IMG/VR virus record: IMGVR_UViG_3300046010_003925
Location: 1 to 24,905 of that record
DNA: 24,905 bases
Reading direction: 5' to 3' (one strand)
Origin: a virus
Part shown: positions 1 through 10,749 of the stretch, piece by piece
Layout: every line of letters begins with the position of its first letter
Position numbering within the stretch: position 1 is the first letter of the stretch
The notes under the pieces: model-generated
Told to the model about the DNA's origin: nothing
The model's input: the letters and a program-made list of their open reading frames with translations, nothing else
Databases searched by the model: none
Program-made: the position numbers and the translations under genes

Positions 1-3000
1 AGCAGTATATTTAGCTTCATCAAAAGCTGTTTTTCTAACAGCTTTATAATTTTCAGTCGCTAAATCTTGTAACTGTTTAGTATAAGCTCTACCTGATTCA
101 GTCGTCTGGTCTTGATTATTAGCAATATCTCGTAATTGTTCAGCTAAGTCTCGTGCTGTTTTTTTGGCAGGAGTTGCTGTAGCGTTATACAGCGATAATT
201 CGGCTGTATATTTAGCAGTCATAAATGCTGCTTCTTCAGTAGCATTATAGAGTTCAATTTTTCTAGCAATATCATCTTCAGTCTGTTTACCGTCGATATT
301 GGATATATCTGATTCTAGTTTCAATCTTCTTTTTTCAGCCGCTGTTGTCAAACGATATGTTGCAACAGCCTGTTCCTCAACATCTATAAACCCTTGTGCT
401 AATTCTCCTGTTGGTAATTGTGTTTCGACATATTTTTTAGAGGTCACAGTTTTATATGTTTCTGGAGCAACTAATGAATCAATTGATAACTTTTGTTTGG
501 CAATTGATTGAGCTTCACGAGCGGCATCAGCTAGTCCGTATTCAGCTATCTTAACTGCCATTGTAGTGATTGGTAAACCGCCTGTAGCTAACTCCATTAA
601 TGATTTATTTAATTGTACAATTTCAGCATCAACAGCGGCTATATCAGTGACATTAGTCATACTTTCTTTTTTAGTATTTAAACTAGAAATCCTAGCATCG
701 AGTTCTCCTGTGAGAGTCGTGTACAAGTTTTTAATATAGCTACTCGCCTCAGTTCCGATAAATTTTTCATACTTATCTATATTTTTTGTAAAATCTTCAT
801 ACTGTCGCAATGTCTGCGGAGTTAGCGCAAAATCAGTTGAGTTTCTGATATTTTGATTAGTATTAAATGCGCTGAAATCGAACTTTTTAGTAGAAGGGTC
901 GTAGACACCTAGCTCTTTCTTAATCTGATATTGTCGTTGTTCCAATAAGGTTGAGTTTAGCTTTAATATATTAGTTTCTGACGATAAAATAGTGTTTCTA
1001 TTTGCTAGGATAGCTTGATATGATTGTGTAATAGCTAATACCGATGCTTGCGCTTTAGCTTGTTCGTCTACCGTATCTTGTAACGGTTGCATCGCGGACG
1101 CTAGTTCTTTTGGTGTCGTAATACCTTGACCTGATGCGTCGAGTTCTGTTTTAGCAGCCGCTTTCATTGCACTATTAGCATCAAGCAATTCGTTCAATGC
1201 TTTCCACAAATCATTAACGCCAATTTTAGCTTTAATCTGGTCTGCATTCTTAACCGTATCCCATGTCATAGTATCGAACTTACTCGTGCCTAAATAAGAT
1301 GTCCATATAGACTTATATTGTTCCATCCATGATATATCTGCGGCATTTGATTTTGGAGCAGCGTAAGTTCCCACAGGTTCAGCTAATTTACTAACATTAC
1401 CTAATTTAATAGACGCTTTGGCTAAATTATCTGTTTCAACATCCAACATTTTTTTCAAGTCATTACCCGTGATATTGCTCGAAGATAAGCCTGTCATCTC
1501 AGAAGTAGGGTTTCTCGTATTAAACTGTGCAATCAAAGATGTTATTTTTGTAAATGAGTCGGTTAATTTATCCCCTGCCGATGTCGTAATATCGTAAAAC
1601 GCATTTAACGCATCCGATAAGTTTTTAACACCATCCTTAGCTGTACCTGTTGAATCCCACAATTCAGTCATGGCATTTGAGAATTCAACTATTGCCATGG
1701 GATTACCTACTAATTTTTCTTTAATAGAAATACCTAGTTTTTCTAAACCGCTAATTGCTACACTTGCTCCGATAGCTAATCTACCCACAGTTTCAAGCAT
1801 GCCTTCGCCCATTTTTTGGAATCGACCTAATAGGTTTCCAAAAATGTCAGTGGCTATACGGTCAGAGTACGCTGATATTTGGTCAGATAGATATTTCCCT
1901 ACATCTAAATTAGCGTCTTTTGCCTTAGCTTCTTTCCAATCAATTCGTAACGCAGCAGGATTGTAGTTATCTAACTTAGATGCTAATAAGTCGTTTATAC
2001 CTAGTGTCGACACACCTGTTAAGATAGCAGTTTGCAGATTGCCGAATACGGATAGTAAAGAGCCTGTTAATTCGCTTGATAAAGCTCCGTAGGTTTCAAC
2101 TATGCGTTTACTAGAGCTAAACCAACCTTTTGTTTTAAGCTCCCATTTAGCCCAAGATTGGGCATTCATCGACTGCTCCATTCCTTGACCAAAGAAATCG
2201 CTAAACGACACCACCATACCTTCGCCAAGTTGAGTAATCTTAGTTTTACCGATACCTAGTAGCTTACCTAAGCCCATTACTAAACCTGCGATAACTAAAC
2301 CTCCCACAAGTCCAAGAACAGCTCCACCAGCAGCGATAGCTCCTGAACCTATACCTGCACCCATACCCATACCGATACTACCAGCAGCGGCTGTCGCTGA
2401 CATCCCCGTTAATGCACCTACCGCCATTCCAGTTAAACCGCCGCTAGTCACTGCTCCTAAAGCCGCACCCGCAGCTAATCCGCCAACTTGCATACCTACA
2501 GAACCATTAGGGCTTACTGCGGCAGGTTGATTCGGTCTAGTAAATGTCCCTGCTGCTGACATGTTTGTGAACGAATTAGTGCTAATCGCTAATTTAGTAG
2601 TTAAGTTATTCACAGAACCCCCTAAATTACGCATTGCATCAGCAGTCGCCTTTAATTCAGGGTATTCGCTAGCGTGAATGTCATTTAGGGCTTTAATTAT
2701 GTTTGTGATAGAGTTACTTGTAGCGTCAGCATCTCCTAACACAGTACCTTTTTCTGAACTAGCAGCATGAGTATTATCGACTGGTTTGCTGCTGCTTCCA
2801 CCTAATAAGCCGAACCCTAACCCTGCCATAACAGCCATCATACCAGCCACGCCAGCAAAGCCCGCAAAACCACCTTGAGCGAACATACTAGACGCGCCTT
2901 CCGCTACTTTTACCACAGTGCGAGCAAGCGACATCGCTATTTCAACTGTGTGTAATCCGACTTCTACAGCGTGTAACGCTTTACGACCCGCAGACTGTTT

Positions 3001-6000
3001 ACTAAACATCTGTGATGCAGCACCCGCGATACTTGCGAATCCGCCGATAGTTGCTTGAGCTGAATCTAAGTCTAATTTAGATTTTTGTTTCGCATAATCA
3101 GCATCTAATTTAGCTAACTCTTTCGTGTTATTTTCTTTCGATTTAACTTCTTTTCGTTGATTAGTATAGCTTTGGTCTAATTGTTGAGCAGCATTTACAT
3201 TTTGAGTATTTGCTTCTAGCATTGATACTAACGATAATCCAACATCACCAACTGCTTTTCCAACAGAACCAAATGTTTCAGCAAGTAATTTAGCCGACAC
3301 ATTCATTTGAGCGAGAGCTTCTTGTAAATCGGTTTTATCAAACTCTAATTTAATCTTCATTGATTTATTAGAGAAGTATTCCTTCCACTGTGCGTCAAAC
3401 TTCTTAGCTTCAGCAGGGTCTATAGGACGAAGTTCGACTTTTGCTTTATCTCTTTCATTAATTAAGCTATCAATTGCACCTTGTCTAGTACCTGTCTTAT
3501 ATCGAGCAGCTTCGTTTTCTGAAGTAATTTTTTTCAAATGCTCTGCTGATTTCGACAACAACTGTTCTTCAGCTCTCGCATATTGTGTCATACCTTGAGT
3601 GGCAGAATTAAGCTGTAACTGTAATTGTAATTTACGTTCTTCTAGTTTAACAATACGTTGATTACGAGCTTCGTTTTGACCTAGCTCAACATTCGCTTTA
3701 GCTTCTAAATCAATTTGTTTTTGAACATTAGCTAATTCTTCAGATGCGTAAATTCCTTGATATTTGAGCAAGTTTCGAGAACCCTGTAAGTCAGGAATAG
3801 CTGACATTCCTTTATCTGCTACAAGTGCATTGATTCTACCTGAACGTGCTAACTCAATATCTTTTAGTGCATCTTTATTATCGAATTGATGTCTAATTGC
3901 ATATAGCTTCATTGTTTCAGCAGTTTCAGCTCGTAGACCATCTTGCTTAGTTTTATTAATAGCTTCTTGTGCTGTAAATTCGCTTTTCAATAACCCTAAG
4001 TTACGCATTTCAATATCAAAAGTTTTCTTAATAGATATTGATTTTTCAACGTCACCATCGCGCAAGGCTTTATCATATTGTGCGATTAAACCTTTAAGTT
4101 GTGCTTGTTTTTCTAATGCAGCAACGACTTCTTTGCTTTGTGCAGGGTCATGAGAACCAGAGCTGCTCATTTTGCTCACTTCGGACAATCTCGCTCTAGC
4201 ATAATCAAAGCCTAGACCTTTCGACATACCTCCTTCACCTTGAGCATACGCAGCAATGGCTTTTTCCATTGAGTTGTACTTAACTGCTAATTTCCCTAAT
4301 TCACGGGTCATCACATCTACTGTTTCAGGGATATTATATTTATCTTTTAATCCCCAACCTTTTGCAGTAGGGTCGGTAATTTGACCAACTCCGCCAGCCG
4401 TGTATTTTTGTCCTGGTGGTGGAATTAACTTCGTATGGATATTCTCCCCTGCGCTTTCATGGTTTATTATTGACGCTACCACATTTGCAGGAAAATTATA
4501 TTTTTGAGCAGCGGTTTCAATTAAAGGTTTTAAATCGGCTACTTTTTTAGCAACTTTAGTTTCGTCCATCACAAACGACAACTTCACAGGGTTCTTAGCA
4601 CTCGCTAACTCGATTGCGGAATTAAGTTTAACTGAGCTAGATTCTACCGATTGCATCATTGACGTAATAGTCGTATCTTTTGATTCTCTTGCTTGTGCTA
4701 ATTTAGATTCGTGTTCTTTTTGTTTTTTAGTTGCTTCTGCTAAATCATACATTGCTACAGCGGCAGCATGGATTTCCTCAGCTTTACCTTTAGGTAACAT
4801 TTTATCAAGGTTAGTGTAATAGTCTTCTGTACCAGGTGTACCTAACCTTTGTTTTAGTTCAGGTGATAATAAATCATGACCTTTCTCTTTTTTAGTGTAT
4901 AAGCTATCTAACAAATTATGTTGTATTTTTAATACTTCGTTCGCTTTTATCGTTTCTTGATTTAATTCACTTTCTTTTGTTTTAGCCACATTTAAAGCAA
5001 GTTCAGCCGCTTTAGCTACCGATGCGAATTCTTCATCTCTAGTACGAGTACCTTTTTTAGCAGATTCTTCCGCTAAAATTTCTGATTCGGCTTTAGCTTC
5101 TCTAAGTGTTTTTAGTGTTTTATTTAAGCTCTCTAGTTCTTTTACCGCCGCATCTCTATTATATCCTAAAACACTAGACACATTAGCCGCGATACTGTTT
5201 TGTTCATCGTGCATTTTAATAGAGGCGTTTAGCTCTCTAATACGAGCAACAGTTCTCTGTTCATCGGACTTCTTAGCTTCTTCTTCTTGATTTTTTTGAA
5301 ACCCATAAGTACCTGCGGTAACAGCTCCGACAGCTAATAATCCTATAGGATTACGAGCGAGTAGTGCTGTGGCAGCAGTAGCTTCACCGACTGCAACTTT
5401 AGCTGCTCTAGCGTTTATTGCCATTAGCATCATTGCACCTGCAACCAGTTCAATCCCTGATACGAGTTCAGGTAAATGATTCCCGATAGATTGCATCATA
5501 GTGAAAAAATTACCGCTTGCATCAGTGGCAGTATTAAAATTACCCACATATTTGGTGAATGCGTTATCTAGTTCTGTGAACCCTTGTGCGAATGTTTTAT
5601 GCGACTTAGCGTATTTATCATCTACTTCGCTTTGTGCTTTTAATAAGGCTTTAAACGATGCTTCAGATGACATATTGCCTGAAAGCATCATTTTACGAGT
5701 ATCTGCAATAGAAAGTCTATGTACTTCTTGGGTCGCAATAGCATCTAATTCGGCTTTAGATGCTCCACGCATCTGTGCTTCGTATAAATTAACTTCTTTT
5801 GCCGCTTCCATGTAATGGTCAGCGATTCCTTTCATCACAAGTGGCATACTGTCAAGGATAGACTTGAACTCCTGACCTCTGACGTAGACGCCGCCGAACG
5901 CTTGTTCTAACTGAAGTAAACCACCTCTAACTTGATTAGGGCTAGTTCCCATGATAGCAAGTGATTTAGTCACAACATCAATTAACTTCACTGTATCTTC

Positions 6001-7530
6001 TTGTGAAGCATTCAATGTTTCTGCCGCCCGTGACATTCTCAAATAAACGGAAGTTAAACTTTCAAGAGGAACTCGATTATCTTGAGCTAATTTAAACAAT
6101 CGTTCTTGCATTTCAGCAGCATGACCTGTTTTTTCTGTAGACATCGCAACTGCATTTTGGAAATGCACCCAACTATCAGCATAGTCCATAATCTGACGAC
6201 CTGACATCGCCACACCGACCATCATTAAAGTTTGTTGGAGTTTGTTTAAGCTGTTTGAGAGTTCGTTGATGACTGAGGTTTGATTACTAGAACTTGTCGA
6301 AGGTGGTAATTCTTGCGAAAGTTGACGTGATGAATCAGCTCGTTGTGTAGCAACATTGAATCCGCTCATTTGACGTTGCGCTACAATGTTTCGTCTTTCT
6401 AAGGCTTCGATTTCACGGTTAATTTGATTTACGACTGCGGAACTATTTGAATTGTTTGCGGTAGCTAAACTTACTTGTGCGTCACGGAGAGAATGGAGTG
6501 TAGTTATTTCATTGTTTAATGCGGTTGTTACTGATTGAATTGCAGATAGTTGCGTGGTTCTAATCACATTAGCAGCGGCTTGGTAGCTGATTGCTAATTC
6601 ATCATTGCCTTTTTTCTCAGCCGCATTTCGAGCAGCGAGATAGCTTTTATATTTTGCTAAATCCTCAGTAGTATCTATTGACGATGTGATAGCTGTAGTC
6701 GATACTGCTTTGGTTCTTTCTTTTGCAGCAGCTAACGCAACCTGTGTCTGACGATTATACTCCTCAGTCATGCGTCTAGTATGAGCTTGTTCTTCAGTAT
6801 ATTGAAGAACTAAATTCTGTCTATGTAACTCTAATTCTATTTTATTACCACTTGTTACCCTCGCTTGCGATTCCATAATGGAGTTTTGTAGCGTATTCAT
6901 TAACTCAGTTTTACCAGCTAAGGTAGCTGCTTTTAATTCTGAAAAATACTGTTTTACCTCTATCATCGCTTTGGCACTATCTAAATCAAATGAGCCGCCT
7001 TTTGATGATGATTGTGATGCAGATTCTTTCTTAATTTTAGCTATTTCAGCAGCTTCCGCTTTCGCATTTGCAATCGCTAATTTAGATGCAGTTTGTGCTT
7101 CTAATAAACGAAGTGAGTTTTCAGTCCGTATGGTATCAGTAATCCGTTTCTGCTCTTCTGTCACAGTAGACGTGCCTTGTTTAGCTCCTTCTGCTAAAGC
7201 AGCACCGAAGCCTTTTCCTAATTCACCTACTTTAGTTGATAAAGTGTCAATAGCAGTAGTGAGTCCTGAAAAAGAATTTGAATCTACTTGCACAACTAAT
7301 TTATTATTATTTAATTTGTTAATGAGTGCTTCTACGCCTTCTAGCTGTTTAGTCAACGCATTTGTAGAGGTTTGGTCAAATGAGAATTTAACATTCATTT
7401 GCTCAATTCGCTCGACCATTTTAGCTAAATGGTCTACTTTTTCAACGGTTTTGTTTATCTGACTATCGCTATCTCCTGTATCTACTTTGAGTGATAATGA
7501 TACTGTACCGCCTAATTCGCCACTTGACAT
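1..7530 (-). CDS. Tape measure protein with internal lytic transglycosylase domain (3' end outside window)
   Basis: This frame is open for 2510 codons from the ATG at 7530 to the left edge, so the gene is partial. AAGGA lies a few bases before the ATG, 13 nt after the preceding chaperone gene. Residues 1-430 are Gln/Glu/Lys/Ala-rich and probably coiled. About 440-570 match the conserved N-terminal tape measure domain. About 690-740 is hydrophobic. About 1000-1100 is an SLT-type transglycosylase domain: NHES with the probable catalytic Glu at 1025, then GVGQI, then AYAQG. A Gly/Ala-rich hydrophobic stretch lies near 1660-1760, and more coil follows. Such proteins set tail length inside the tube and are ejected at infection; the muralytic domain would open peptidoglycan locally. 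The role is clear from size, domains and its place after the chaperones. Confidence 0.95.
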   Translation of the reverse strand, partial: MSSGELGGTVSLSLKVDTGDSDSQINKTVEKVDHLAKMVERIEQMNVKFSFDQTSTNALTKQLEGVEALINKLNNNKLVVQVDSNSFSGLTTAIDTLSTKVGELGKGFGAALAEGAKQGTSTVTEEQKRITDTIRTENSLRLLEAQTASKLAIANAKAEAAEIAKIKKESASQSSSKGGSFDLDSAKAMIEVKQYFSELKAATLAGKTELMNTLQNSIMESQARVTSGNKIELELHRQNLVLQYTEEQAHTRRMTEEYNRQTQVALAAAKERTKAVSTTAITSSIDTTEDLAKYKSYLAARNAAEKKGNDELAISYQAAANVIRTTQLSAIQSVTTALNNEITTLHSLRDAQVSLATANNSNSSAVVNQINREIEALERRNIVAQRQMSGFNVATQRADSSRQLSQELPPSTSSSNQTSVINELSNSLNKLQQTLMMVGVAMSGRQIMDYADSWVHFQNAVAMSTEKTGHAAEMQERLFKLAQDNRVPLESLTSVYLRMSRAAETLNASQEDTVKLIDVVTKSLAIMGTSPNQVRGGLLQLEQAFGGVYVRGQEFKSILDSMPLVMKGIADHYMEAAKEVNLYEAQMRGASKAELDAIATQEVHRLSIADTRKMMLSGNMSSEASFKALLKAQSEVDDKYAKSHKTFAQGFTELDNAFTKYVGNFNTATDASGNFFTMMQSIGNHLPELVSGIELVAGAMMLMAINARAAKVAVGEATAATALLARNPIGLLAVGAVTAGTYGFQKNQEEEAKKSDEQRTVARIRELNASIKMHDEQNSIAANVSSVLGYNRDAAVKELESLNKTLKTLREAKAESEILAEESAKKGTRTRDEEFASVAKAAELALNVAKTKESELNQETIKANEVLKIQHNLLDSLYTKKEKGHDLLSPELKQRLGTPGTEDYYTNLDKMLPKGKAEEIHAAAVAMYDLAEATKKQKEHESKLAQARESKDTTITSMMQSVESSSVKLNSAIELASAKNPVKLSFVMDETKVAKKVADLKPLIETAAQKYNFPANVVASIINHESAGENIHTKLIPPPGQKYTAGGVGQITDPTAKGWGLKDKYNIPETVDVMTRELGKLAVKYNSMEKAIAAYAQGEGGMSKGLGFDYARARLSEVSKMSSSGSHDPAQSKEVVAALEKQAQLKGLIAQYDKALRDGDVEKSISIKKTFDIEMRNLGLLKSEFTAQEAINKTKQDGLRAETAETMKLYAIRHQFDNKDALKDIELARSGRINALVADKGMSAIPDLQGSRNLLKYQGIYASEELANVQKQIDLEAKANVELGQNEARNQRIVKLEERKLQLQLQLNSATQGMTQYARAEEQLLSKSAEHLKKITSENEAARYKTGTRQGAIDSLINERDKAKVELRPIDPAEAKKFDAQWKEYFSNKSMKIKLEFDKTDLQEALAQMNVSAKLLAETFGSVGKAVGDVGLSLVSMLEANTQNVNAAQQLDQSYTNQRKEVKSKENNTKELAKLDADYAKQKSKLDLDSAQATIGGFASIAGAASQMFSKQSAGRKALHAVEVGLHTVEIAMSLARTVVKVAEGASSMFAQGGFAGFAGVAGMMAVMAGLGFGLLGGSSSKPVDNTHAASSEKGTVLGDADATSNSITNIIKALNDIHASEYPELKATADAMRNLGGSVNNLTTKLAISTNSFTNMSAAGTFTRPNQPAAVSPNGSVGMQVGGLAAGAALGAVTSGGLTGMAVGALTGMSATAAAGSIGMGMGAGIGSGAIAAGGAVLGLVGGLVIAGLVMGLGKLLGIGKTKITQLGEGMVVSFSDFFGQGMEQSMNAQSWAKWELKTKGWFSSSKRIVETYGALSSELTGSLLSVFGNLQTAILTGVSTLGINDLLASKLDNYNPAALRIDWKEAKAKDANLDVGKYLSDQISAYSDRIATDIFGNLLGRFQKMGEGMLETVGRLAIGASVAISGLEKLGISIKEKLVGNPMAIVEFSNAMTELWDSTGTAKDGVKNLSDALNAFYDITTSAGDKLTDSFTKITSLIAQFNTRNPTSEMTGLSSSNITGNDLKKMLDVETDNLAKASIKLGNVSKLAEPVGTYAAPKSNAADISWMEQYKSIWTSYLGTSKFDTMTWDTVKNADQIKAKIGVNDLWKALNELLDANSAMKAAAKTELDASGQGITTPKELASAMQPLQDTVDEQAKAQASVLAITQSYQAILANRNTILSSETNILKLNSTLLEQRQYQIKKELGVYDPSTKKFDFSAFNTNQNIRNSTDFALTPQTLRQYEDFTKNIDKYEKFIGTEASSYIKNLYTTLTGELDARISSLNTKKESMTNVTDIAAVDAEIVQLNKSLMELATGGLPITTMAVKIAEYGLADAAREAQSIAKQKLSIDSLVAPETYKTVTSKKYVETQLPTGELAQGFIDVEEQAVATYRLTTAAEKRRLKLESDISNIDGKQTEDDIARKIELYNATEEAAFMTAKYTAELSLYNATATPAKKTARDLAEQLRDIANNQDQTTESGRAYTKQLQDLATENYKAVRKTAFDEAKYTA

Positions 7531-7543
7531 AGTTTTGTTCCTT

Positions 7544-8266
7544 TTATTTGTTAGAAGAAGATTCTTTTTCTGATTGTTTATTGTAATGGTCTAAAAATAC
7601 TCTATCGAGCATTTTAATAATACGAACCTCAAATGGACTAAATGAAAGTCCGTTCATATCACAATAGGCTTTGATTTCCGAATAGGTTATTGAGCCAATG
7701 CTCATTCCGCTAGGGCGTGTAGAATTTAAATTTAAAAAATGTTCCCACAAGTAAATCATGGAAGCTGCAAATTCTATAGGCTCTAGCAGCGGGTCTGATA
7801 TACCGTGGTTTCGATATAGAGAAGTCAGAGCGTCTCTTAATGTTGAGCCATCTTTTTGCTTTTCAGATAGTTTTAATTCATGTTCTGCGTATTTCACTAA
7901 GGAAGCAATATGCTCCTCTAGTTTCATAGAAATGTCATTCGACACATTGATAACTTGTTGGCGAATATACGGGTTAGTTGAACACAGTATAATCGCATTC
8001 TCCCTTGTGAATGGTTCAACAATACCTCTCCAACCCACAATTCTACCCGCAGCTGATAGTATTTCTAACTCCAAATCATTAGCGATAGGAATACTCGCGC
8101 TATCATGCAAGTCGTTAATTCGTTGAATTTGTGTGAGCTTTGATTTTAATAGACTGCTAACGGCTTTAGCGTGTGCAGATGTCACAGAGATATGCAAGTC
8201 GATAGGTCTCCCCGTTATTTCAGATATTACTTCAAATTCGATAGGTGTTTCATCTATAGATTGCAT
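7544..8266 (-). CDS. Tail assembly chaperone with C-terminal extension (G-T-like)
   Basis: The first 110 or so residues of this 240-residue protein are related to the chaperone at 9368-9763. Residues 75-105 and residues 89-119 of the other protein share 20 of 31 positions, with the core RIVGW.GI.E.FT.ENA and TNP.IR.Q. Residues 110-150 are a charged linker. About 155-222 form an extra helical domain with W-E-H-F-L and a motif around ITYSEIKAYC and LSFSPFEV, in the position of the T part of a lambda-type G-T protein. The frame opens upstream with TTG at 8329, but that codon lies in the promoter -35, so ATG 8266 is preferred; it has no clear Shine-Dalgarno. The protein probably links chaperone-coated tape measure to tube subunits. 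The family call is by resemblance and position. Confidence 0.8.
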   Translation of the reverse strand: MQSIDETPIEFEVISEITGRPIDLHISVTSAHAKAVSSLLKSKLTQIQRINDLHDSASIPIANDLELEILSAAGRIVGWRGIVEPFTRENAIILCSTNPYIRQQVINVSNDISMKLEEHIASLVKYAEHELKLSEKQKDGSTLRDALTSLYRNHGISDPLLEPIEFAASMIYLWEHFLNLNSTRPSGMSIGSITYSEIKAYCDMNGLSFSPFEVRIIKMLDRVFLDHYNKQSEKESSSNK

Positions 8267-8300
8267 ATTATTGATAATTAGACATGGAGTAGGTCTAATT

Positions 8301-8329
8301 ATTATTTCATAAATGAGGGTAAAAGTCAA
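8301..8329 (-). promoter_or_regulatory. Promoter of the second tail chaperone gene
   Basis: On the minus strand TTGACT (8329-8324) and AATAAT (8306-8301) are 17 bp apart, with TGA just before the -10. The stretch TATGAAATAATA is also found in the antirepressor promoter. Transcription would start near 8294, leaving a leader of only about 28 nt with no recognisable ribosome binding site. The tape measure gene probably belongs to the same transcript. Confidence 0.75.
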
Positions 8330-8347
8330 GTAGTGCGGATAAATAAA

Positions 8348-8378
8348 AACCTAGCCTATCATTGTGATAAGCTAGGTT
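8348..8378 (-). terminator. Rho-independent terminator of the antirepressor gene
   Basis: Arms AACCTAGC and GCTAGGTT enclose an inner TATCA/TGATA helix. On the minus strand TTTTTATTT follows. It lies 9 nt beyond the antirepressor stop and 19 nt before the next promoter. Confidence 0.88.
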
Positions 8379-8387
8379 CAAATGATA

Positions 8388-9140
8388 TTAAAGAGGTTTA
8401 GGTGATAGTTTCTCTACTTCTGAAACATTCCATTTGTAATTGTAACCAGACTTACCAAATCTATTCCAACTGTGATAAAACGAAATTTGCTCACCTTCTA
8501 ATGTCGGAATCCAATCTTTACCATTAGGTCGAGTTTGTAATCCAAGTCGTTCTAAGACGCGATTCATTTCAGCTCCAGAATAACCGAATTTTCTACCTAA
8601 TTCAGTTGGTTCTAGCATCAACACATCTGACGGTATATTGTCTTGTGCAGGAGCTAATTTTAATAGAGGTGTAAAATCAACATTGGTTTCTTTGTAAGTT
8701 AATTTAACACATTCAATCTGAGCCGAGTGAAGTGGTACTTGAAGTAACTGAGCAAACGCTAAATAACCTTCTGCGTAAGGGAGTGCGTCTTTAGGCGTCA
8801 TAGCTATCGCAATAGGTTTTTGTGAAATGAGTTTATTTTCGCACTCGATGAAGTAGTTTCGGTAATCATGAGCATTCTTAGTTTTCGCCATCATCGAAAT
8901 ATGCTTTGCGAAATCTAAAGATACTGCGAAATCACGGGTTTCATTACCGTTCAACTCAAGGTTGAACCCCACCCAATCTTTATTTTCTAAGAAAAATTCG
9001 TTATTAACTATATTCTTTTCAGACCATTTTGACCAAGCCGCTTTTGCTAAACCTAAGCCAATATAAAGCTCTCTAGCTGAAACTGAATTTACTTCTGAAT
9101 TATTGATAGTTTGTTGTACTACAGGGATTAAATCTTTCAT
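8388..9140 (-). CDS. AntA/AntB-type phage antirepressor
   Basis: This 250-residue protein would relieve repression by binding a phage repressor or other regulator. Residues 18-95 match the AntA/AntB N-terminal domain: VSARELY, a K..WS.W segment, DWVGF, and a ..DFA.SLDFAKHISMMAKT.....YR.YFIECE core. Residues 190-250 form a second small domain typical of phage regulatory protein C-termini. The open frame begins at TTG 9179, but AAAGGA precedes ATG 9140, so that start is chosen. The gene has its own promoter with an operator-like inverted repeat and its own terminator, and it lies inside the tail morphogenesis block between two chaperone genes, as expected of a 'moron' cassette. The family is secure; its target is not in the window. 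Confidence 0.88.
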   Translation of the reverse strand: MKDLIPVVQQTINNSEVNSVSARELYIGLGLAKAAWSKWSEKNIVNNEFFLENKDWVGFNLELNGNETRDFAVSLDFAKHISMMAKTKNAHDYRNYFIECENKLISQKPIAIAMTPKDALPYAEGYLAFAQLLQVPLHSAQIECVKLTYKETNVDFTPLLKLAPAQDNIPSDVLMLEPTELGRKFGYSGAEMNRVLERLGLQTRPNGKDWIPTLEGEQISFYHSWNRFGKSGYNYKWNVSEVEKLSPKPL

Positions 9141-9157
9141 GAGATGTTCCTTTATGG

Positions 9158-9238
9158 TGGCGGCTCTCAGAGGGTACAAAATATAAAACCCAACCGCCAG
9201 AATAAAGAATTTTTGATATTTATGTTCTAGTGCTGAGA
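9158..9238 (-). promoter_or_regulatory. Structured leader of the antirepressor mRNA
   Basis: The transcript leader is about 105 nt. TGGCGG (minus strand, from 9199) can pair with CCGCCA (ending 9158), with GGGT/ACCC inside. The segment between the inner and outer helices also pairs as TCTCAG (around 9238) with CTGAGA (around 9170). The second pairing crosses the first, so the two may be alternatives. The structure ends about 11 nt before the AAAGGA ribosome site. The function is inferred. Confidence 0.4.
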
Positions 9239-9241
9239 CAC

Positions 9242-9271
9242 TATAAAAAGTATTATTTCATACTTTTTATA
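9242..9271. promoter_or_regulatory. Operator-like inverted repeat over the antirepressor promoter
   Basis: Two perfect 12-bp arms, TATAAAAAGTAT (9242-9253) and ATACTTTTTATA (9260-9271), are separated by 6 bp. The repeat covers most of the promoter spacer and the -10, so a bound dimeric repressor would block transcription. A cruciform or an artefact of AT-richness is less likely given the length and placement. Confidence 0.7.
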
Positions 9272-9280
9272 AAATGTCAA
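9252..9280 (-). promoter_or_regulatory. Promoter of the antirepressor gene
   Basis: TTGACA (9280-9275) and AATAAT (9257-9252) have a 17-bp spacer with TGA before the -10. The perfect -35, ideal spacing and overlapping operator suggest a strong, repressible promoter. Confidence 0.82.
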
Positions 9281-9310
9281 GCACTTTACACATTCTACCA
9301 CACAAAAGAA

Positions 9311-9340
9311 AACCTCGTCAACAAAAAGTTTAACGAGGTT
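9311..9340 (-). terminator. Terminator after the first tail chaperone gene
   Basis: Arms AACCTCGT and ACGAGGTT close a helix with an AAC/GTT inner pairing and a T-rich loop. On the minus strand TTTTCTTTT follows. It sits about 27 nt past the chaperone stop, so the transcript is probably monocistronic. Confidence 0.85.
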
Positions 9341-9367
9341 CGCTAGTTTTTCTTAGGAGATAAGAAA

Positions 9368-9763
9368 TTACTTTGTGAAGTTAGTCACAACGCCTGATGC
9401 CGTCATAATTTGTTCACGGATTACAGGATTAGTTTTCACTAACTCTAATGCGTTTTCAGCGGTAAACGATTCTTCGATACCTGACCAACCGACGATACGT
9501 TTAGCTGCCAATTCGTATCCAAATAAAATGTCATCTTCTACTTTTTCAGCAGGGGCATCTTTACCTTTTTTAGCAGCGATTCGAGCTGCTTCACGTTTAC
9601 CGTTTACTGCTTTAGCAACTAAATCTGCAATCACTTTACTGTGTTCACCGATAATATCAATTTCGATACCTGTCGGTTGACCTGATTGCTCATCAATAAT
9701 TGCTAATTTAAAAGGGGTGTCACTTGCTTTTTCAATGTTTAAAGAACTTAATGAAATTGCCAT
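9368..9763 (-). CDS. Tail assembly chaperone (G-like)
   Basis: This 131-residue protein has the layout of siphophage tail chaperones: an N-terminal beta-rich part, a Lys/Ala-rich middle (residues 50-75), then RIVGWSGIEESFTAENALEL and TNPVIREQI near the C-terminus. These proteins coat the tape measure during tail assembly and are absent from virions. The frame can be read from TTG 9778, but GGAG lies 9 nt before ATG 9763, which is preferred. The gene has a consensus promoter, a hairpin at the very 5' end of its mRNA and its own terminator, suggesting high separate expression. No frameshift into a downstream T-like frame is seen; a terminator follows at once. Its paralogue is at 7544-8266. Confidence 0.82.
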   Translation of the reverse strand: MAISLSSLNIEKASDTPFKLAIIDEQSGQPTGIEIDIIGEHSKVIADLVAKAVNGKREAARIAAKKGKDAPAEKVEDDILFGYELAAKRIVGWSGIEESFTAENALELVKTNPVIREQIMTASGVVTNFTK

Positions 9764-9795
9764 GTTGTTTATCTCCAAGAGTTATGTTAGAATTT

Positions 9796-9819: not shown

Positions 9820-9849
9820 ATAATAACATAGTAGGTATAATTTTGTCAA
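9820..9849 (-). promoter_or_regulatory. Promoter of the first tail chaperone gene
   Basis: TTGACA (9849-9844) and TATTAT (9825-9820) are 18 bp apart, with TGT before the -10. A perfect TATAAT on the opposite strand (9836-9841) lies inside this spacer and could be the -10 of the divergent endonuclease gene, although no good -35 accompanies it. Confidence 0.78.
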
Positions 9850-9894
9850 GCGTTTTATTGAATAATATGTATAAAGTTTATTTGGGAGTTTATG

Positions 9895-10749
9895 ATGAGT
9901 GATTTAGAAGAACGAAAACATTGTATTTATATGATTACAAGCCCAAGTGGAAAGTCGTATATTGGTCAAACTTGTAATTATAAAAAGCGTATGCGAGAAC
10001 ACAGTAAGCCATATAGTGGGTGTACTGCGATTAAAGACAGCGTTAATAAATATGGGTGGGAGTCGTTTACACATAGGATTATATTAAGCGATTTGACATT
10101 ATCGCAAGCTAATAAGTATGAAGAATTTTATATTAAAGAACACAATACTTTAGTTCCAAACGGATATAATTTAAAATTGGGAGGTGATAATCACGCAATG
10201 TCGGACGATGTTAAAAGAAAAATAGGTGATAAAAATAGAGGCGTTAAAAGAACTCCTGCTCAAATAGAAGCTAATAGACTGAGAAAATTAGGAGTGTTTA
10301 ATTCAGATGAAACGAATGCTAAAATATCAAAAGCATTAAAAGGTAAGCCTAAATCCGAGGAGCATAAAGAGAAAACTAGGCAGTCGCATATCGGCATGAA
10401 AGCTACTGACGAAGCAAAATTAAACATGAGATTAGCACAGTTAGGTCGAAAAGTATCTGATGACACTAGGGGTAAACTAAAATCCTGTAAACTACAAAAA
10501 TCTATATCCGCTGAATTACCGCTATACATCAATAACATTAAGCACTTGCCTCCTGACACTGTATTCGATACTTGTGAGCTGGCAACATTATTGAACTTAA
10601 CAAAAGCTCCGATAGGGCGCAGGATTAGAGCTGGTAAATTTCCAAATTCATATTTTGAACTTCCTAAAGGAGGTAAAAAGTATTTTATTCCGATACAGGA
10701 CGTTCATAATTATTATAATCACCACATAACAAAAAGCCCTCTTAAGTGA
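9895..10749 (+). CDS. GIY-YIG homing endonuclease with NUMOD3 repeats
   Basis: This is the only recognised plus-strand gene; it lies antisense to its neighbours between tail tube and chaperone. Counting from ATG 9892, the nuclease domain covers residues 9-98: a CIY variant of GIY (11-13), YIG at 23-25, basic residues and His37, Glu77/78 in the YEEFYIKEH helix, and PNGYNL. NUMOD3-type DNA-binding repeats follow at about 104-120, 137-169 and 189-200. Residues 225-275 look like a helical DNA-binding tail (LATLLNLTKAPIGRRIRAGK). GGGAG lies 3 nt before ATG 9892 but 6 nt before ATG 9895, so the second ATG is used. Such free-standing enzymes cut cognate sites in related phages and spread themselves. 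It shares its 3' terminator with the tail tube gene. Confidence 0.9.
   Translation: MSDLEERKHCIYMITSPSGKSYIGQTCNYKKRMREHSKPYSGCTAIKDSVNKYGWESFTHRIILSDLTLSQANKYEEFYIKEHNTLVPNGYNLKLGGDNHAMSDDVKRKIGDKNRGVKRTPAQIEANRLRKLGVFNSDETNAKISKALKGKPKSEEHKEKTRQSHIGMKATDEAKLNMRLAQLGRKVSDDTRGKLKSCKLQKSISAELPLYINNIKHLPPDTVFDTCELATLLNLTKAPIGRRIRAGKFPNSYFELPKGGKKYFIPIQDVHNYYNHHITKSPLK

Follow-up and report, generated by a model that had tools for sequence, protein, structure and literature searches.

Programmed frameshifting in tail chaperone genes is among the most conserved recoding events in phages, and the usual answer to why it is retained is that the short and long proteins are needed in a fixed ratio. 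The lambda pair G and G-T and other tail chaperones made by a programmed frameshift were reportedly described by Xu, Hendrix and Duda in 2004. In lambda, both gpG and gpG-T attach to the tape measure protein, and the tube protein is recruited by T (review PMC5009743). The stretch of DNA analysed here (the window, a metagenomic virus fragment of 24,905 nt) carries a short and a long chaperone as separate genes, which raises the question of what has taken the place of the frameshift. A clade that has lost the frameshift, next to an outgroup that frameshifts, is a natural test of whether selection keeps the ratio or the slip itself.

The chaperone locus and its neighbours

The head and tail genes of the window all lie on the minus strand, in the order terminase, portal, capsid, connectors, tail terminator, tube, short chaperone, AntA-domain gene, long chaperone and tape measure. 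The relevant features are as follows.

1..7530, minus: tape measure protein gene, directly after the long chaperone and running off the window; strong Shine-Dalgarno (SD) pairing, -5.6 kcal/mol
7544..8266, minus: long tail assembly chaperone, G domain fused in frame to a T domain, 240 aa, ATG start; Phage_TAC_18, phrog_313
8267..8300, minus: leader of the long gene, without Shine-Dalgarno (SD energy +1.5 kcal/mol), with the inverted repeat TAATTAGAC...GTCTAATTA
8301..8329, minus: predicted promoter of the long gene, TTGACT-17-AATAAT with TG, 10/12; TTGAC and ATAAT invariant in the window and six relatives
8347..8379, minus: second terminator, 3' of the AntA-domain gene and 5' of the long-gene promoter; -20.3 kcal/mol, z -7.1
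8388..9140, minus: AntA/AntB antirepressor-domain gene, inserted between both chaperone genes; Pfam AntA E 2.8e-16
9310..9341, minus: intrinsic terminator of 12 pairs, directly 3' of the short gene; -15.7 kcal/mol, z -4.5
9368..9763, minus: short tail assembly chaperone (G form), 131 aa, ATG start; Phage_TAC_4, phrog_313
9771..9776, minus: Shine-Dalgarno of the short gene, GGAG (GGAGAT region); duplex energy -6.4 kcal/mol
9820..9849, minus: predicted promoter of the short gene, TTGACA-18-TATTAT with TG, 11/12; similar site upstream of the short gene in relative L005
10777..12456, minus: major tail (tube) protein gene, 5' of the short chaperone; Phage_tube_2 E 1.1e-24

Both chaperone genes lie between the tube protein and the tape measure genes, the position expected for this family. 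Since no tail sheath gene was recognised in the window, the phage is likely a siphophage. The two separate reading frames of 131 and 240 residues, the near-consensus promoter, good ribosome site and own terminator of the short gene, and the TTGACT without a clear ribosome site before the long one are all found as the original prediction had them. The AntA-domain gene that separates the pair had not been named there; it is absent from between the chaperone genes in relatives L005, L021, L025 and L026, because of which the pair appears to be older than this insertion.

The gap between the two genes is an insertion spot (8388-9140 in the window, 6579-8061 in L024, 6560-8660 in L038), occupied by AntA-domain or other genes in some relatives and by nothing in others. 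A GIY-YIG homing-type endonuclease gene lies on the opposite strand between the tube protein and short chaperone genes (9892-10749, plus strand), with similar-looking genes at that spot in L023/L024 and L038 and none in L005.

Homology of the two proteins and distribution of the gene pair

Profile searches place both proteins in the tail assembly chaperone family, and not in unrelated ones. The short protein matches Phage_TAC_4 (E 9.4e-6, 26.3 bits against a Pfam cut-off of 21.1) and phrog_313, 'Tail assembly chaperone' (E 2.3e-10). The long protein matches Phage_TAC_18 at residues 157-225 (E 2.3e-17, 63.3 bits against a cut-off of 27) and phrog_313 over residues 6-236, its G domain staying below the Pfam TAC_4 cut-off; for both proteins, the Pfam and PHROG matches above cut-off belong to TAC_4/TAC_18-type families only. 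Compared directly, the two share 37 of 118 residues (31%; BLASTP E 2e-19), and the families built around them align over 119 columns with a probability of 99.8% (hhalign E 1.4e-27), homology covering nearly the entire short protein. The 20 of 31 residues said to be shared in the core, the RIVGW..QI/QV stretch, proved correct when counted in the alignment. Judged by their sequences, the two proteins are real paralogues, far beyond chance resemblance.

Concerning structure, the AlphaFold model of the short protein (pLDDT 78.7) has the HK97 tail assembly chaperone 2ob9 (Z 4.5) and YqbN 3klu (Z 3.3) as its best PDB neighbours by VIA-align, both weak; a Foldseek search of this model against the PDB gave nothing significant, 2ob9 ranking second with E 3.3. 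The model of the long protein, built with 8 sequences, is of low confidence and its N-domain is not resolved; its top viral Foldseek matches are full-length tape measure or tail assembly chaperones. A PDB sequence search with both families returned no matches.

In order to find relatives, IMG/VR, prokaryote genomes and annotated phages were scanned, and loci were classed by searching the three frames of the matching strand with profiles of the G and T domains. Separate short and in-frame long genes occur in at least 22 distinct contigs including the window, from about seven lineages, 13 of the 22 being one closely related lineage with many near copies. Within these contigs identity to the window is 62-100% for the short protein and about 45-100% for the long one, that of L087 being more diverged. 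The frameshift state was not seen in any contig with a short protein at or above 62% identity to that of the window. Outside the duplicated group (identity at most 45%), there are 28 loci, or 27 when L042 and L097, whose match is identical, are counted once, in which a single G gene stands with T in a different frame, and in seven further annotated phages the T frame is recognised next to an upstream gene in another frame with a weak G profile match; from the sequence, we infer a frameshift in these outgroups. By profile, six named phages share the G and T domains of the window and, for the most part, its gene order (Mannheimia phage vB_MhS_1152AP2, Synechococcus phage Ssp-JY42, Caulobacter phage DMCA, Limnohabitans phage DC31, Curvibacter phage P26059A and Pasteurella phage Pmp13); unlike in the window, G is one gene in all of them and T lies in the -1 or +1 frame. 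The prokaryote genome scan yielded three distant prophage or MAG relatives, none of them duplicated. The survey of relatives proposed with the original prediction hence gives a clean split between duplicated and frameshifted states.

It should be noted that in three relatives T lies in the +1 instead of the -1 frame (L014 at 3898, L017 at 3817, L108 at 4317), and therefore the direction of the slip has switched within the chaperone family. A Gallionella contig (L043, 1054-2892) holds a G-like domain in an open frame of about 613 codons with no recognisable T domain.

Slippery site and expression signals

In most outgroup -1 loci the G gene ends with AAT TTT after an A, i.e. the canonical A_AAU_UUU, and the two +1 junctions read, those of L014 and L017, are TTT CGA. 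An X_XXY_YYZ heptamer is present close to where G ends at 14 of 16 outgroup -1 loci versus 0 of 8 duplicated loci (Fisher p 6e-5, an optimistic value since there are close relatives among the 16). The window, L021 and L024 still encode Asn-Phe here, but with AAC TTC as against the AAT TTT of the outgroup, and therefore the slip site was removed there by synonymous change. The slippery site is absent from the duplicated group, in part through synonymous substitutions.

The -1 and +1 frames near the end of the short gene close within 23 codons, and equivalents of its terminator follow the short gene in L005, L021, L024 and L025, among the lineages folded. With no heptamer, closed frames and, in the lineages folded, a terminator, the short gene has no frameshift route into T, and the fused product from 9368-9763 that would have told against the original prediction is not expected. 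Neither the slippery site nor the overlapping T frame that mark the end of a lambda-type G gene is found in the short gene. Instead, a short gene stands with a longer one that repeats the short domain together with a downstream part, and the junction within the long gene has no heptamer and is read through in frame.

A search for a hidden frameshift or a T remnant after the short gene found none. In-frame slippery heptamers within the long gene, which might give a second short product, are scattered and not conserved (codons 177-180 in the window, codon 187 in L025/L026, none in L021 and L024), and were not taken as functional.

Among the loci examined, SD energies are -5.4 to -6.4 kcal/mol for the short gene, +0.3 to +2.1 for the long gene and about -6 for the tape measure gene; in the window the pairing of the long gene is the weakest among the 18 genes scored. 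Promoter-like matches are frequent in this AT-rich stretch, 15 being found where 12.5 are expected, so a single match is not above chance. What supports the long-gene promoter is not the single match but the TTGAC and ATAAT that stay invariant across the window and the six aligned relatives, and the site remains with the long gene despite upstream insertions in the window, L024, L087 and L088. Codon adaptation, with the capsid and tube genes of the window as reference, is 0.738 for the short gene, 0.762 for the capsid gene and 0.529 for the long gene, the lowest scored (short versus long, permutation p 0.0005); the short gene exceeds the long one at all eight loci, with permutation p below 0.05 in seven and 0.052 in the eighth. 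Taking SD strength and codon usage as proxies, we infer that the short form is made in excess of the long one. Both differ, at the loci examined, in the direction expected from duplication with differential expression, as had been proposed.

The inverted repeat at the start of the long gene (8275-8302 in the window) overlaps the end of the -10 box with its first bases. Its arms pair at 9 of 9 positions, with compensatory changes in L021 and L088; it is weaker in L005 and lost in L025/L026. It could be an RNA hairpin at the 5' end of the transcript, or an operator.

Origin of the pair and competing explanations

The reading that we favour, with a probability of roughly 0.8, is that a duplication, together with an in-frame fusion, took the place of the programmed frameshift, and that the ratio is now set by promoters and translation initiation. 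The ancestor would be a siphophage chaperone gene that made G and G-T by programmed frameshifting and was then duplicated; one copy would have lost T and the slippery site and become a dedicated, highly expressed short chaperone (G), and the other, fused in frame, a dedicated long chaperone (G-T), each now probably its own transcription unit. The excess of the short form would come from a good ribosome site and optimal codons, set against the missing ribosome site and poor codons of the long gene. As in lambda, both forms would coat the tape measure protein, and by the same analogy the T domain of the rarer long form would recruit tail tube subunits.

In the tree of G domains the short proteins form one clade (99/96) and the long N-domains another (98/92), and the two are joined at 91/77 opposite all frameshifted G proteins, which is consistent with one duplication before the clade radiated. 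AU tests, however, do not reject separate origins of the short and long N-domains (p 0.15 and 0.19), and therefore the 91/77 branch is not firm and the long gene might be a fused chaperone transferred from another phage, the resident gene then losing T and the slippery site. The identity of only 31% between short and long N-domains and the presence of other inserted genes in the tail region of the window agree with such a transfer, but the best tree unites the two, and no in-frame fused relative was found outside the duplicated clade among the loci classified; we consider this origin unlikely.

Purifying selection is evident between the window and L005 in both the short gene (dN 0.11, dS 0.97, dN/dS about 0.12) and the long gene (dN 0.27, dS 1.9, dN/dS about 0.14). 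The long protein evolves faster, with 45-65% identity among relatives versus 62-86% for the short one, and, given the strong conservation of the short proteins and the fast divergence of the long N-domains, the function of the long form may have shifted. Taken further, it would no longer be the ratio-controlled G-T partner and would have a separate role, e.g. as tube recruiter or tape-measure-specific factor, with the short form alone acting as chaperone, for which its faster divergence and the position of its G domain under the TAC_4 cut-off could be adduced. Against this, all members keep both domains and the T motif, with purifying selection acting on them, and the tape measure gene adjoins the long gene wherever this is visible, which makes a separate role still more improbable than transfer. 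Finally, chance resemblance or an assembly artefact (a split, misassembled or duplicated contig) may be set aside almost entirely, since, although the window is a metagenomic fragment, the same arrangement recurs in at least 22 assembled contigs of 45-100% identity and the homology lies far above chance by both E-values given above.

If duplication did replace the frameshift, the chaperone ratio could be regulated during infection, and not be fixed by the rate of slipping, because the long gene lacks a Shine-Dalgarno, begins with a covarying inverted repeat and is served by a promoter of its own; this extension is speculative, and we regard it as rather doubtful.

As in lambda, a short G and a long G-T carrying T at its C-terminus are encoded immediately ahead of the tape measure gene, and they presumably divide the work in the same way; unlike lambda, where one gene slips, the window has two genes with separate promoters and no slippery site. 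In some T4-like phages a short gene and a longer, fused one are reported to take the place of a frameshift (PMC10885494, citing Vladimirov et al. 2022), an arrangement like the present one in that no frameshift is involved. Those are myophages, and the window has a siphophage-type tail module with proteins of the TAC_4/TAC_18 family. In Microbacterium cluster EA phages two ORFs seem to be separately expressed, and the available part of the report describes no duplicated G domain in the second ORF (PMC7302621). The principle of separate genes is therefore already known from these two reports. The present case adds a siphophage-type lineage that has chaperones of another family and frameshifted outgroups, in which the two genes are independent transcription units and the disappearance of the slippery site can be followed. 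As the outgroup relatives keep a frameshifted G/T, the switch from one state to the other can be located on a tree. A literature search found no description of duplicated chaperones in siphophages, which is weak evidence. The locus is thus a further separate-gene case outside T4-like phages, and it points to the expression signals that took over. In annotation, chaperone genes of this kind should not have a frameshift imposed on them by gene finders or frameshift predictors.

A last observation concerns the tape measure gene, of which the first part is nearly the same in the window (1-7530) and L004 (6562-12543) and the remainder strongly different. The two contigs are otherwise near-identical, and this change from sameness to strong difference suggests recombination inside the gene.
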